Assembly (NCBI GenBank): GCA_003568315.1
Contig: PWYL01000026.1
Location: 1 to 43,955 of the forward strand
Direction: 5' to 3'
Length of the DNA: 43,955 nt
Source: Mollicutes bacterium
GTDB taxonomy: Bacteria > Bacillota_I > Bacilli_A > Izemoplasmatales > Izemoplasmataceae
The notes beneath the pieces are model-generated. The model saw only the letters and a program-made list of their open reading frames with translations, had not been told where the DNA came from and searched no databases. The position numbers were made by a program, and so were the translations under genes. Below, in pieces: positions 34,002 through 39,685 of this stretch (position 1 is its first letter; each line of letters starts with the position of its first letter).

Positions 34002-35177
34002 TCAATCCGCGAGCGCCTCGACGACAACGTTGTAGTCGAGCACGCCGCGCAGACGGCCCTTGCCGTCGACGACCGGAAGGTCGTATTCGGCTTCTTTCAA
34101 CTTGTGCCAAGCTTCACGGAGATAGGCGTTCCTATAGATCACGGTATCGTCCTCGTTGACGAGTTTGTTGATGGTTTGGCCGCGTGATTTCTGGAGGTCC
34201 TCGAAACGGATGTATCCTTGGAACTTCCGGTTCTTGTCGGTGACATAGCAGAAATCCATGTCTCTCTCCTTCAAGGCTTCCCGCGTTTCTTTCACCGAAT
34301 CGCCGAGTTTGGCGACATAGCCGGGGCGATGCATGATGGAGCGGACTTTCAGGATCCGCGTCTTGTCGACATCGGCGATGAAATCCCGGACATAGTCGCT
34401 AGCGGGTTTGTCGAAGAATTCGTCCGGGGTGCCGATTTGGACGATTTCCGCGTCTTTCATGAGCGCGATTCTGTCACCCAGCCGGAAGGCTTCGTTCATA
34501 TCATGCGTGATGAAGAGGATGGTCCTGTCCATCTCGTCTTCGAGTTTCAGGAGTTCGTCCTGCATGTTGCGGCGGATCAGGGGGTCCAAGGCACTGTAGG
34601 GCTCATCCATGAGGAGAAGCTCCGGGTCGTTCGTCAGCGCGCGGGCAAGGCCGACACGTTGGCGCATGCCGCCCGACAGCTGGTTGGGCATGTGGTTCTC
34701 CCAACCGGAAAGACCGACGAGGTCGATGGCGTCTTGCGCTGTTTGGCGACGTTTTTCTCTGGCGACACCTTGGACTTCCAGAGGGTATTCGACGTTCTGC
34801 ATGACCGTGCGGTGGCTGAGCAGGGCGAAGTTTTGGAAGACCATAGAAGCATCGTTACGGCGATAGGATCTGAGTCCAGAGCTCGAGAGCTCCGTCAGAT
34901 CCTGCCCGCCGACAGTGATTGTGCCGCGGGCGGGTCTGTTCAAGAGGTTCAGCGTACGGATGAGGGAACTCTTACCGCTTCCCGAAAGACCCACGATGAC
35001 AAAGAGTTCTCCTTCTTCAATCTCGATACTGAGATTTTTGACGGCCACCGTGGCGCCGGTCTCTTCGCGGATCTCGTCAGCGGTCATGTCTTCGTCCAAA
35101 AGTTCTATGGCGGCTTTTCTCTGCATCTTCGTTCCGAACACGACACTCATGTTATCAATTTTCACATCTCTGGCCAT
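34002..35177 (-). CDS. opuAA: Glycine betaine/proline ABC transporter ATPase with CBS domains
   Basis: 391 aa. ABC ATPase (about 1-265): Walker A GLSGSGKSS (63-71), signature LSGGMRQR, Walker B LLLMDEP, His switch ITHDMNEA. Tandem CBS domains (about 270-391) follow, with RSIMHRPGYVAKLGDSV and LPVVDGKGRLRGVLDY. In the Lactococcus OpuA the CBS pair senses c-di-AMP and ionic strength, so a similar gating is expected. ATG 35177 has the SD GGAGTGATC that contains the opuAB stop. Last gene of the opuA operon; a bidirectional terminator follows. Confidence 0.95.
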   Translation of the reverse strand: MARDVKIDNMSVVFGTKMQRKAAIELLDEDMTADEIREETGATVAVKNLSIEIEEGELFVIVGLSGSGKSSLIRTLNLLNRPARGTITVGGQDLTELSSSGLRSYRRNDASMVFQNFALLSHRTVMQNVEYPLEVQGVAREKRRQTAQDAIDLVGLSGWENHMPNQLSGGMRQRVGLARALTNDPELLLMDEPYSALDPLIRRNMQDELLKLEDEMDRTILFITHDMNEAFRLGDRIALMKDAEIVQIGTPDEFFDKPASDYVRDFIADVDKTRILKVRSIMHRPGYVAKLGDSVKETREALKERDMDFCYVTDKNRKFQGYIRFEDLQKSRGQTINKLVNEDDTVIYRNAYLREAWHKLKEAEYDLPVVDGKGRLRGVLDYNVVVEALAD

Positions 35178-35183
35178 TTTTGA

Positions 35184-36056
35184 TCACTCCGTCTCCATGG
35201 TTTGGTCGAATCGGGCGGTGACACCTTGCAAGAGTCTGTCAAGGATGATGGCCACAAAGACAATGGCCAATCCCGCCACGAAACCGTCGCCCACATTGAT
35301 TTGTCGGATGGCGATGAGAACTTCCTGTCCGATGCCGCGTGCGCCGATCATCGAGGCGATGACGACCATCGCGACGGCCATCATGGTGGTCTGGTTGAGA
35401 CCGGCGGCTATCGTCGCCAGTGCTTGGGGCAGTTCGATCTTGAAAAGCATCTGCATGGGAGTGGACCCGAAGGAGATGCCCGCTTCGATGACTTGTTCAT
35501 CGACATTCTTGATGCCGAGGAACGTCAGTCGGATGAGGGGCGGCACGGCATAGATGGTTGTCGCGAAGACGGCGGGTACGCGCCCGATGCCCAGGAGCAT
35601 CAGTGCCGGGATGAGATAGACGAACGAGGGCAGAGTCTGCATACCGTCGAGAATCGGCTTCAAGACAGATTCCAACCGGCTTGACTTGGACATGAGGATT
35701 CCGGTGGGCAGTCCGATGAGGAAACTGATGAAGACACTGATGAAGATGATGGCCAAGGTGTAGATCATCTCGTCCCACAAACCGCTTACACCGATAAGGA
35801 AGAGCAGCAAGGACAGTATGACGCCCGTCTTCACATTGTAGAGTCTCCATCCGGCGATGAACAAGAGGCCGATGTAAAGCCACCACGGCATCACGCCGAG
35901 GACGAATTCCACACCGTCGAACATGGTGAGGATGACATCGCGGATGATGTCGAAAAGCCACTCGAATGTATTCGAAAGCCAATCGACAAAGCGGTCGATG
36001 TAAACACTGTAGTCGAAATACAGTCTTTCGGGGAAATCACGTATCGTTTGCCACAT
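35184..36056 (-). CDS. opuAB: Glycine betaine/proline ABC transporter permease
   Basis: 290 aa with about seven hydrophobic segments. The permease core (about 90-280) has the EAA-type loop EAGISFGSTPMQMLFKIELPQAL contacting the ATPase, and the family motif LPTGILMSKSSRLESVLKPILDGMQTLPSFVYL (in parts) typical of ProW/OpuAB. An N-terminal extension with two helices precedes it. ATG 36056 has AAAGGAG 10 bases upstream. It is separated from the binding-protein gene by a 169-base gap holding two large hairpins but no promoter that I can see. Confidence 0.95.
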   Translation of the reverse strand: MWQTIRDFPERLYFDYSVYIDRFVDWLSNTFEWLFDIIRDVILTMFDGVEFVLGVMPWWLYIGLLFIAGWRLYNVKTGVILSLLLFLIGVSGLWDEMIYTLAIIFISVFISFLIGLPTGILMSKSSRLESVLKPILDGMQTLPSFVYLIPALMLLGIGRVPAVFATTIYAVPPLIRLTFLGIKNVDEQVIEAGISFGSTPMQMLFKIELPQALATIAAGLNQTTMMAVAMVVIASMIGARGIGQEVLIAIRQINVGDGFVAGLAIVFVAIILDRLLQGVTARFDQTMETE

Positions 36057-36225: not shown

Positions 36226-37197
36226 TTACTGGAGAGCGTCTCTTACATTGTCGGCGACATCTTCAGGAACCCAGGGGGTCCAGATGTCTTCATTGTTGCG
36301 GAGCCACTCTTTTGCGGCTTCCATGGCGTCATCGAGTTCATCCATGAGCACGAGTGCTTCCGAGGTGATGTCCGCAGAGGTCTCATAGTTGCTCAGGAAT
36401 TCGAAGATTTCCGGATAACGCTCTTCAAAGCCGTCGGTGACGACGACGGTGACCGGTGTGGGCGGAATGTTTCCTGTTCCTTCATCGTAGTCGTACTCGT
36501 AAGGATCTTCGAGGAGACGCAGGTCCATTTCCGCATGCGGCCAAGTAGGCGTCCAGTGGTAGCCGACCCAAGCTTCTTCGCTCTCATAAGCGTCGACCAG
36601 GGTGACGTTCAAGGTCGCGGTGGATTCGAGAGGATAGAATTCGAAGGCATCACTGAGGTCGCCGTAAATCTCTTCGTTATTGAACTTGTTTTGTAAAAAG
36701 TTGGTCGCGGCCCAGCCACTGGGACCACCATGGACGATACCTTTTTCGTCTGCCACTTCAGTACTGTAGAACATCTCCTTGTGCTCGATCAGATCGAACA
36801 CGGTGTAGATTTCGTAATCATCCTGGAGATAGCCGGGAATCCAGAGACCTTGGAAGTTGTCGTCGAAATTCGTGGCGATTTCATGGTAGTATCCCGCTTC
36901 GAGGTCGTCTTGATAGCTGGTCACATTGTCGGACCACATCTCGGAGTTGACATCGATATCACCCGTTCTCAGCGATTGGACCACAACGGGAGTATCCGCT
37001 TGGACATCCTCCCATTCGGCACCGTAACCATGTTCGAAGATGAAGCCCATGACACGGTTGTGGAATACCTGGCTTTCCCAGTCGCCTTCAGCCAGACTGA
37101 TGACATCTTCTTCTTCTCGACATGCAGCAACCGTGAAAGCCAGTGCTATGCCGACAAAGACGATGGAAAGTTTCTTGATAAAGTTTTTCACAATCAT
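36226..37197 (-). CDS. opuAC: Glycine betaine-type substrate-binding lipoprotein
   Basis: 323 aa. The signal peptide ends in lipobox VAAC (Cys26). The rest is an OpuAC-type periplasmic-binding fold with aromatic-rich ligand segments: WESQVF, DVNSEMWSDN, GLWIPGY, GGPSGWAATNF, WVGYHWTPTWPHAEMDL. The Trp clusters would form the cage for a quaternary ammonium compound (betaine, proline betaine, carnitine or choline; not decidable). ATG 37197 is three bases from the SD AAAGGAG, whereas GTG 37191 would be nine bases away; either start keeps the signal peptide. First gene of the operon, ahead of permease and ATPase. Confidence 0.93.
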   Translation of the reverse strand: MIVKNFIKKLSIVFVGIALAFTVAACREEEDVISLAEGDWESQVFHNRVMGFIFEHGYGAEWEDVQADTPVVVQSLRTGDIDVNSEMWSDNVTSYQDDLEAGYYHEIATNFDDNFQGLWIPGYLQDDYEIYTVFDLIEHKEMFYSTEVADEKGIVHGGPSGWAATNFLQNKFNNEEIYGDLSDAFEFYPLESTATLNVTLVDAYESEEAWVGYHWTPTWPHAEMDLRLLEDPYEYDYDEGTGNIPPTPVTVVVTDGFEERYPEIFEFLSNYETSADITSEALVLMDELDDAMEAAKEWLRNNEDIWTPWVPEDVADNVRDALQ

Positions 37198-37216
37198 TCA
37201 CTCCTTTTCTTTTTTT

Positions 37217-37243
37217 ACAACCCTGATATTAACACAGGGTTGT
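37217..37243. promoter_or_regulatory. Operator O1 at the opuA promoter (BusR-type inverted repeat)
   Basis: ACAACCCTG-N9-CAGGGTTGT, a perfect inverted repeat centred on the -10 element of the opuA promoter. The same half-sites recur at the regulator gene's own promoter (37962-37987 and 37996-38020). Confidence 0.85.
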
Positions 37244-37254
37244 CAGTTTGTAAA
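37226..37254 (-). promoter_or_regulatory. opuA promoter
   Basis: Minus strand TTTACA (37254-37249), 17-base spacer, TAATAT (37231-37226). The -10 lies exactly in the spacer of operator O1. Confidence 0.8.
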
Positions 37255-37258
37255 GTTT

Positions 37259-37277
37259 TACAACCATCAGGGTTGTA
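37259..37277. promoter_or_regulatory. Second half-site pair upstream of the opuA promoter
   Basis: TACAACC-N5-GGTTGTA, upstream of the -35. Same half-sites as O1 but with a short 5-base spacer. Confidence 0.6.
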
Positions 37278-37284
37278 TTTCCAT

Positions 37285-37302
37285 AAACGCCTAATTCAGG
37301 CG
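37285..37302 (-). terminator. Weak terminator after the regulator gene
   Basis: Minus strand CGCCT/AGGCG (5 bp, GAATT loop) then TTTATGG, just before the opuA operator region. Confidence 0.35.
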
Positions 37303-37321
37303 GTTCATGAGCATTTTGACG

Positions 37322-37939
37322 TCAATCTTCTTCCGGTTTGAACAATGAAAGTGTTTTCTTCTTCACGTTTTCATCGCCGAGGACGTAAAGGATCATTCCC
37401 GCTTCCAATGGCATATTGGGATTCGGGGCCTGATAGAGCTGTCCTTCGGCTTCGATGGCGAGCACGAGACCGTGGGTCTCGCCCCAGAATTTCAACGCTT
37501 TCAGACTTTTGCCGAGGTTCTTGTCGGTGTCTCGGAGACGTAATGTGAAGAAATCGAAGGGGAAGACATCGCTTTTCGCGGTCTCGAGGAGTCGCTTGAT
37601 CCTCCTTTGCAGGACACTTTGGATCCTTTCCGATTCCTCGAGGAGTTCCAACGTGTCGGAAAAGAGTTTGTGGGCCTCGCTCTGGCTCCGGTATTGTTCG
37701 ACATACATCTCGGCCGCGTTCCTTGAGAGGACATAGATGCCGCTTCTTTGCTTGACCTGTACGACGCCGAGGTTCGCAAGCAGTCGCATCGCTTTGCGGA
37801 TCGTCTCGCTCGAGACTTCGAATTCACCCGCGAGCATCGACCGGCCGCGCATTTTATCGCCTTCGTCGAGTTTGCCCGCGACGATACGCTTGGCGATCTC
37901 GTAGGCGATGGTCTGATAACGTGCTCCATTTTTGGTCAC
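37322..37939 (-). CDS. busR: GntR-type regulator with RCK_C domain (BusR-like)
   Basis: 205 aa. An N-terminal GntR winged helix (8-72) with YQTIAYEIAKRIVAGKLDEGDKM and SSETIRKAMRLLANLGVV. A helical linker (about 75-118) then joins a C-terminal RCK_C/TrkA_C domain (about 122-203) with RDTDKNLGKSLKALKFW and LEAGMILYVLGDENV. This architecture is that of BusR, the c-di-AMP-responsive repressor of the busA/opuA betaine transporter in lactic streptococci. Start GTG 37939 has GAGGTG six bases upstream; an upstream start would run through its own operator. It lies next to opuA, and matching operators sit at both promoters. Confidence 0.87.
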   Translation of the reverse strand: MTKNGARYQTIAYEIAKRIVAGKLDEGDKMRGRSMLAGEFEVSSETIRKAMRLLANLGVVQVKQRSGIYVLSRNAAEMYVEQYRSQSEAHKLFSDTLELLEESERIQSVLQRRIKRLLETAKSDVFPFDFFTLRLRDTDKNLGKSLKALKFWGETHGLVLAIEAEGQLYQAPNPNMPLEAGMILYVLGDENVKKKTLSLFKPEED

Positions 37940-37961
37940 TCCGACCACCTCGCTTTCTATA

Positions 37962-38021
37962 CAACCCAAGATTACCACAGGGTTGTCAGAAAGTCAACCC
38001 ACATAATGAATATGGGTTGTC
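37962..38021. promoter_or_regulatory. Tandem operators at the busR-like gene promoter
   Basis: Two inverted repeats: ACAACCC-N12-GGGTTGT (37962-37987) and CAACCC-N13-GGGTTG (37996-38020, followed by T). The first surrounds the -10, the second covers the region just upstream of the -35. Confidence 0.82.
37970..37998 (-). promoter_or_regulatory. Promoter of the busR-like gene
   Basis: Minus strand TTGACT (37998-37993), 17-base spacer CTGACAACCCTGTGG-containing, TAATCT (37975-37970). The spacer is almost identical to that of the opuA promoter. Confidence 0.8.
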
Positions 38022-38073: not shown

Positions 38074-38095
38074 AAAAAAGCCCCTCGCGAGGCTT
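38074..38095 (-). terminator. Terminator of the yolD-like gene
   Basis: Minus strand AAGCCTC/GAGGCTT-type stem (7 bp with one G-T, GCGA loop) followed by T6, overlapping the stop codon. Confidence 0.88.
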
Positions 38096-38421
38096 CAGAG
38101 CACCCGGATGTCGACAAGATCGCAAAAAGCGAGGGGGGCATCGTCGATGAAAAGGAGCCTTTGTTCCCTGTCGATGCCGGAAAGGTGTCCCGCGATCTTT
38201 CTTCTTCTGCCGTTTTCGAAATGGAGGACGCGCAAGGGCCTCTTTTTCATCCACGCCTCCTCGACGGCGTATTGCATGGCGGCGCACTGGTCTTCGCTCA
38301 AGCGGGGACGATCTTCTTCCGCCATCCGCGTGTGGAGGTCGGCGTGGTATTCGGCTTGCGCCTCCAGCGCCTCGAACGGCAGCCACTTCAACATGCCGCG
38401 GTCGTGGTAGGTCTCACTCAC
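38095..38421 (-). CDS. YolD-like protein
   Basis: 108 aa. The N-terminal YHDRGMLKWLPFEAL block is typical of YolD-like proteins, and the C-terminal half is beta-rich (KRPLRVLHFENGRRRKIAGHLSGID). YolD-like genes are usually found paired with UvrX/YqjW-type Y-family polymerases, as here. Start GTG 38421 has GGGTGG six bases upstream and overlaps the polymerase stop by eight bases; GTG 38430 and ATG 38394 are alternatives. Molecular role unknown; a polymerase cofactor is the usual guess. Confidence 0.83.
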   Translation of the reverse strand: MSETYHDRGMLKWLPFEALEAQAEYHADLHTRMAEEDRPRLSEDQCAAMQYAVEEAWMKKRPLRVLHFENGRRRKIAGHLSGIDREQRLLFIDDAPLAFCDLVDIRVL

Positions 38422-39685
38422 GGTGACCACCCACGAGATTCGCCCGTCTTTTTGCCGTGCCGGCGTCGAAACAGGAAGAAAGCCGCAAGACCGCCGCCTT
38501 GCCGAAACGTTTTCTCACGCTGTCCAGAGTCTCCATGAGTCTTTTTTCCCTCTCTTTGCGCACATGGTCTTGAAAGAAGGAAAGTTGCGTGAAGGGGCGT
38601 TTCTTGGAGAGGTTTCCGGCGCGGATCGCGATCTTGCGCACGGGAGCATCGTCGTAGTGTCTCTCGAAGAGGGTGAGGCAGGCTCGGCGGATGTCTTCGG
38701 CGCTGTCGGTGGGCGCATCAAGGGTCAACTGCCGCGAGAAGCCCCCGGGGGCGACTTTGCTGTAGGAGACGGAAAGATGGATCGTTTTCGCCTCTTTTTG
38801 GAGGAAGCGCAGCCTTTCGGCGGTGTCGTCCGTCATCTCGAGGATGAGGGTGAAGATGTCGGGTGCGGTGTAGTCCCGAAAAAGCGTCTGGCCTAAACCT
38901 ACGCTCTTGATGGGAGAGCGGGAATGGTCGATGGGCTCGCTTATCATTGATTGGTCGATGCCGTGGGCGTGGAAGAAAAGCTCCGAGCCTTTCACGCCGA
39001 AGAATCTCTTCAATTTCTTCTTGTCATAGCGGGCGATATCGCCGACAGTGAAAAGGCCGAGGGCGTTCAGTCTCCTTTCCATCCCCGGCCCGATGCCCCA
39101 CATCTTCGCCAGGGGTGAAAGGGGCCAGAGGTCCTTTTCCACATCGTCATAGTCCATCATCGCCAGGCCGGAATCACTCTTTTTGGCCTTGAGGTCGAGG
39201 GCGAGCTTGGCGAGGAGGAGGTTCTTGCCGATGCCCGCGGCGGCGGGGACCCCCGTCTTGTCGCGGATGTCGCGGATGATCCTTCCGGCGAGCGAAAAGA
39301 TGTCCTCTTGATAATAGCTCTTGTAAGCGGTGAAATCCAAGAAGGCCTCGTCCACGCTGTAGATGTGGAGGTCCTCGGGGGCGACGTAGGAGAGATAGAT
39401 CTTGTTGACCGCTTGCGCGACCTCGAGGTATTTCCGCATGCGGGGGCGGGCGATGATGAGGTTGTCGATCTTCGGAAGTTCATAGAGGCGGAAGCGCCCC
39501 GGCAGACCCTGCGCCTTGAGAAAGGGACTCACCGCGAGGACGATGGAGCCTTTGCCGCGCGACTCGTCGGCGACGATGAGCGCCGTTTCATAGGGGTCGA
39601 GACCTCGTGCGGCACACTCTACGGAGGCATAGAAACCCCGGAGGTCGACACAGAGGATGTCGCGAAAGATGCGGTATTCTTCCAT
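38414..39685 (-). CDS. Y-family DNA polymerase, UvrX/YqjW type
   Basis: 423-aa translesion polymerase. Catalytic acids are Asp14 in VDLRGFYASVE, and Asp112 and Glu113 in SVDEAFLDF; the LAVSPFLKAQGLPGRFRLYELP block is typical of UvrX/YqjW rather than DinB, whose motif differs. The thumb HhH AKMWGIGPGMERRLNALGL and the little-finger domain follow to about residue 370, then a basic C-terminus. ATG 39685 has GGAGGG at good distance. A TACAAT -10 lies about 35 bases upstream; no clear LexA box was seen. It forms a pair with the YolD-like gene. Confidence 0.92.
   Translation of the reverse strand: MEEYRIFRDILCVDLRGFYASVECAARGLDPYETALIVADESRGKGSIVLAVSPFLKAQGLPGRFRLYELPKIDNLIIARPRMRKYLEVAQAVNKIYLSYVAPEDLHIYSVDEAFLDFTAYKSYYQEDIFSLAGRIIRDIRDKTGVPAAAGIGKNLLLAKLALDLKAKKSDSGLAMMDYDDVEKDLWPLSPLAKMWGIGPGMERRLNALGLFTVGDIARYDKKKLKRFFGVKGSELFFHAHGIDQSMISEPIDHSRSPIKSVGLGQTLFRDYTAPDIFTLILEMTDDTAERLRFLQKEAKTIHLSVSYSKVAPGGFSRQLTLDAPTDSAEDIRRACLTLFERHYDDAPVRKIAIRAGNLSKKRPFTQLSFFQDHVRKEREKRLMETLDSVRKRFGKAAVLRLSSCFDAGTAKRRANLVGGHRE

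Follow-up and report, generated by a model that had tools for sequence, protein, structure and literature searches.

The window analysed here, a stretch of 43,955 nucleotides that makes up one entire contig of a 1.41-Mb genome in 83 contigs, most probably carries a BusR-type osmoregulatory repressor together with its regulon. Protein family, operon, promoters, operators with their conservation and the genes for c-di-AMP enzymes were all observed. Its closest relatives with a name are MAGs of 'Mollicutes bacterium' and Candidatus Izimaplasma, which carry isolate names like B1Sed10, T1Sed10 and CSSed10, and the regulator is 92% identical to its B1Sed10_81 counterpart. We take these isolate names to denote soda-lake sediment samples, a setting that would suit osmotic control.

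The regulator gene lies upstream of an opuAC-opuAB-opuAA operon encoding a CBS-domain ATPase, with all genes on the minus strand (Table 1). OpuAA could be aligned end to end with the L. lactis OpuA ATPase (7ahc, E = 1.4e-100). An earlier sequence-only reading of this DNA had described a GntR winged-helix/RCK_C protein adjoining an OpuA betaine transporter, and both the Pfam domains and the operon genes bear this out. Directly upstream of busR, also on the minus strand, lies a pair of genes for a YolD-like protein and a Y-family DNA polymerase (38095-39685).

Table 1. Genes, promoters and predicted BusR operators at the locus (window coordinates).
Feature	Position	Strand	Description
busR	37322-37939	minus	GntR wHTH, 51-residue coiled-coil helix and RCK_C; 205 aa; GTG start
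opuAC, betaine-type substrate-binding lipoprotein	36226-37197	minus	PF04069, 4e-40
opuAB, permease	35184-36056	minus	PF00528
opuAA, ATPase with tandem CBS	34002-35177	minus	PF00005 and PF00571; TIGR01186 above cut-off
BusR operator of PopuA (predicted)	37216-37244	minus	GAC-N23-GTA, centred on -10
BusR operator of PbusR (predicted)	37960-37987	minus	GAC-N22-GTA, centred on -10
PopuA	37226-37254	minus	-35 TTTACA (37249-37254), N17, extended -10 TG-n-TAATAT (hexamer 37226-37231); promoter scan
PbusR	37969-37997	minus	-35 TTGACT (37992-37997), N17, TG-n-TAATCT (hexamer 37969-37974); read by eye
Second imperfect PbusR operator	37993-38021	minus	GACAACCC-N13-GGGTTGAC, near-palindrome overlapping -35
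Extra half-sites upstream of PopuA	37260-37276	minus	ACAACCCTGATGGTTGT

Judged by its sequence, the 205-residue GntR/RCK_C protein is identifiable as BusR. Both of its domains, PF00392 GntR (2e-13) and PF02080 TrkA_C/RCK_C (1.5e-7), score above the curated cut-offs, and its GTG start at 37939, preceded by the ribosome-binding site AGGTGG, coincides with the ATG of the 92%-identical relative (L028). Among PDB sequences, the sole full-length matches found with phmmer were the BusR proteins of S. mutans (7wjg, 5.7e-32) and S. agalactiae (7b5t, 3.6e-25); a search of NCBIfam gave no matching BusR equivalog, with GntR-domain matches alone, far under cut-off. An AlphaFold2 model built from 34 window and locus sequences (mean pLDDT 87) has a single unbroken helix, residues 74-124, joining the two domains. 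Foldseek with this model returned BusR chains at ranks 1-13, followed by the RCK_C domain of BusR, both c-di-AMP-bound and free (domain-wide TM 0.71-0.84), so that the identification as BusR made in the earlier reading is upheld by the top matches in both sequence and fold. Whole-chain TM-scores were low (0.37-0.53), which we read as probably reflecting differing hinge angles, and the fold evidence is thus domain-wise. In the winged helix, five of seven residues of S. agalactiae BusR are identical (Tyr13, Arg38, Arg53, Lys54, Gly72), the changes being Lys36 to Arg and Gly70 to Arg; Gly70 is required for DNA binding in the S. agalactiae protein. By homology, the window protein would be a tetramer. 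Together, 17 Mycoplasmatota-type BusRs group in a clade of their own (support 100/98), separate from the streptococcal, enterococcal, clostridial and bacillar clade, with which one Izimaplasma sequence (L046) groups on a long branch and with unsure placement.

The palindromes reported by the earlier reading do straddle the -10 boxes of both promoters, as ACAACCC-N13-GGGTTGT at PopuA (37217-37243) and as ACAACCC-N12-GGGTTGT at PbusR (37961-37986), and the operator on the regulator's own promoter, like that on opuA's, stands as described there. The minus-strand sequence of PopuA is TTTACA-aac-TGACAACCCTG-TG-T-TAATAT-CAGGGTTGTAA, where the TG ahead of the -10 overlaps the letters before it; that of PbusR is TTGACT-ttc-TGACAACCC-TGTGG-TAATCT-TGGGTTGTA. 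ACAACCC occurs ten times in the window, six of them within these two promoters, and the pattern ACAACCCN{11,15}GGGTTGT matched only these two palindromes in the 1.41-Mb genome (control, 0). The near-palindrome at 37993-38021 is retained solely in the window's own genome and in G040, which keeps ACAACCC alone of the half-sites at 37260-37276; these extra upstream copies are a recent elaboration.

The published BusR motif is GAC-N22-GTC, the spacing being 22 bp at each of the four sites established by experiment; in S. agalactiae pAB2 it lies over the -35/-10 region (PMC8517857). The window sites share this layout, but PopuA has N23 while PbusR has exactly N22, and both read GTA on one side; in the lineage as a whole, N23 predominates over N22. 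Half-sites differ by one letter, GACAAC in the window lineage versus GACCAC in Streptococcus and Enterococcus, as seen in Enterococcus canis (GACCAC-N16-GTGGTC) and Streptococcus pacificus (GACCAC...ATGGTC, N22). After comparison with the promoters of these two species, we rejected the operator as a different sequence class. The 'different operator sequence' of the earlier reading was therefore overstated, as the published BusR core occupies the same place relative to -35/-10, with modest differences.

Alignment across relatives showed the operator ahead of opuAC in the Izemoplasmatales genera g1, g2, g10, g11, g16 and g17 as well as in Acholeplasma-like genomes. The eight genomes of g1, g2 and g11 that carry busR all have it ahead of this gene too, so that conservation of the repeats, a point the earlier reading had left to be checked, is found at both promoters. 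Autoregulation appears confined to three genera around the window. When a loose pattern was scanned over 49 family genomes, chance sites turned up as well, the reversed control giving as many or more overall; only sites inspected individually and located ahead of opu genes or busR count as evidence here. The six sites away from busR that were picked by eye for a promoter-like core, and hence not in a blind test, all lie upstream of opuA genes (G041, G043, G002 twice, G003 and G022); in G041 and G043 the gene is that of the OpuA ATPase, on a contig without busR. Operators before such unlinked opuA operons point strongly to a regulon, not to the decay of a local repeat. No BusR match was found in G002, G003 or G041, genomes that are 73-91% complete, despite the operator before opuA (in G003, at G003:C3:2063-2088, L160). 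A second OpuA was sought in the window's own genome and none was found; therefore the two-operon regulon of G043 is not applicable here.

The genome encodes a CdaA-type cyclase bearing the DGA and RHR motifs, which answers the search for a diadenylate cyclase suggested alongside the earlier reading, as well as the phosphodiesterase GdpP and two further RCK_C proteins, one of them KtrA-like. Among the 49 family genomes, 47 have a DAC domain and just 17 have BusR. By Pfam, GdpP has PAS, GGDEF_GdpP, DHH and DHHA1 domains and is fused C-terminally to ribosomal protein bL9 in one open frame (L162:952-3372, G000:C2). The gene following the cyclase (L001:1911-3110) is neither CdaR nor GlmM; it looks like one for a membrane protein that has a PAS/GGDEF-like region. 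Compared to S. agalactiae BusR, whose numbering we use, the ligand pocket keeps Trp159, Pro179 and Pro181, has the conservative changes Ile153 to Leu and Ile166 to Val, and is otherwise altered at Gly154 (Lys), Asn157 (Lys), Val158 (Phe), His160 (Gly), Ala164 (Gly), Thr165 (Leu), Gly180 (Asn) and Phe182 (Asn). Lys157, Phe158, Gln160 and Gly164 are common among Bacillota homologues; Leu165 with Asn180 is a mark of the window's clade. Because several c-di-AMP pocket residues are not kept, ligand binding by BusR is something we can only infer, though it is plausible, and sensing of c-di-AMP by both BusR and OpuA is putative.

These substitutions raise the question of what the repressor reads. It is unlikely, in our estimate, that a BusR-family repressor of opuA and of itself here answers mainly to ionic strength or to another ligand instead of c-di-AMP through its changed pocket. 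Such a reading could draw on the substitution of Asn157, His160 and Thr165 throughout the window's clade, on the conservation within that clade of the substituted motif itself (FWxxTxGLVLAIE...YQAPNP) and on the dependence of L. lactis BusR DNA binding on ionic strength in vitro (PMC10243994). However, the genome holds both cyclase and GdpP, the tryptophan and two prolines are retained, Enterococcus and most Clostridia and Bacilli homologues have Gln at position 160, the pocket rim varies widely across the family, and the key adenine contacts are made by the backbone (PMC8517857). A stricter form, in which the pocket has been rebuilt across the Mycoplasmatota clade (FW-x2-T-x-GLVLAIE...YQAPNP) and a ruler-type repressor on the same operator responds to another ligand or solely to ionic strength, seems to us rather improbable.

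It is very unlikely that the protein acts here as an activator, or as a regulator with another primary target, and that the palindromes belong to another factor: nothing specific speaks for this, although an activator might make use of the second half-sites upstream of PopuA and three incomplete genomes have the operator with no BusR detected, whereas palindromes straddling the -10 are in the position of a repressor site, accompany busR and opuA in different genera, and have no further copies in the genome. That the repeats are a coincidence of promoter elements with no regulatory function is scarcely credible. The -10 and -35 boxes do lie inside or beside the repeats, and their conservation is in part promoter conservation, but neither half-site falls within the hexamers: the right half, GGTTGTA, follows the -10, and the left half sits in the spacer between -35 and -10. 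The right half is nevertheless kept across 22 promoters aligned by the left half, an alignment in which one row (L035) is anchored on a site within a gene and not on its real operator; in 300 simulated windows, a looser form of the palindrome gave at most one match, with a chance expectation of 0.007 per window.

Several known systems come close to that of the window. In S. agalactiae and S. mutans BusR (PDB 7b5t, 7oz3, 7wjg; PMC8517857, PMC5919688), as in the window, a GntR winged helix, a long coiled-coil helix and RCK_C are combined, the operator at the betaine transporter promoter lies over -35/-10, and Tyr13, Arg53, Lys54 and Trp159 are conserved. The window protein differs in sequence (28-36% identity) and in its partly substituted c-di-AMP pocket, and its operator, found also on busR, has GACAAC half-sites, a 22- or 23-base spacer and GTA on the right side. 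Whereas busR adjoins opuA in the window, the two are 655 kb apart in S. agalactiae, where the busA promoter is also two-site; the extra upstream copies of the window are reminiscent of this but placed differently. In L. lactis (PMC6108528, PMC10243994), busR is likewise directly upstream of the betaine transporter operon and the OpuA ATPase carries tandem CBS domains, but BusAB is a fusion of substrate-binding protein and permease, in contrast to the separate first gene for the substrate-binding protein in the window. BusR-like regulators of Mesobacillus, Clostridium and Oscillospiraceae share the domain layout as well as the FW and PGPY motifs, and ACAAC-N17-GTTGT sites lie close to some of them as in the window, yet they form a separate clade and several appear to adjoin genes other than opuA. 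In genus g9, BusR-like genes (L039, L041, L042) have Trp159 replaced by Lys and lie directly downstream of permease genes that look nucleoside-ABC-transporter-like, L042 in a BMP-type operon; in G022, a BusR-type operator precedes an unlinked opuAC. Repurposing or regulation in trans is possible in these cases.

We infer a mechanism in which BusR, by homology a dumbbell-shaped tetramer, would grip two GACAAC half-sites, separated by roughly three turns of the helix and lying on either side of the -10 in the opuA and busR promoters, blocking RNA polymerase. With enough turgor or internal solute, c-di-AMP, presumably made by CdaA and removed by GdpP, would bind the RCK_C dimer, free the DNA-binding domains and strengthen repression; under hyperosmotic stress, c-di-AMP would fall, opuA would be derepressed and betaine, which protects against salt, would be taken up. 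The operator on busR may add negative feedback, making autoregulation a functional loop. The literature searched, which did not extend to the first reports on L. lactis (Romeo 2003, 2007), contained no statement on busR autoregulation, and we claim no novelty for it.

The finding is the occurrence in a new lineage of the known BusR-BusA system, a sound but essentially expected extension whose modest variations, autoregulation and a changed pocket, can be tested; we found no literature joining Izemoplasma and c-di-AMP. It extends the BusR switch beyond Bacillota to Izemoplasmatales, which are related to the wall-less mollicutes, and more than a dozen genomes have a defined operator. The natural variation in half-site, spacer (22 versus 23) and ligand pocket offers material for testing the molecular-ruler model, and the pocket variation allows one to ask which RCK_C residues c-di-AMP truly requires.
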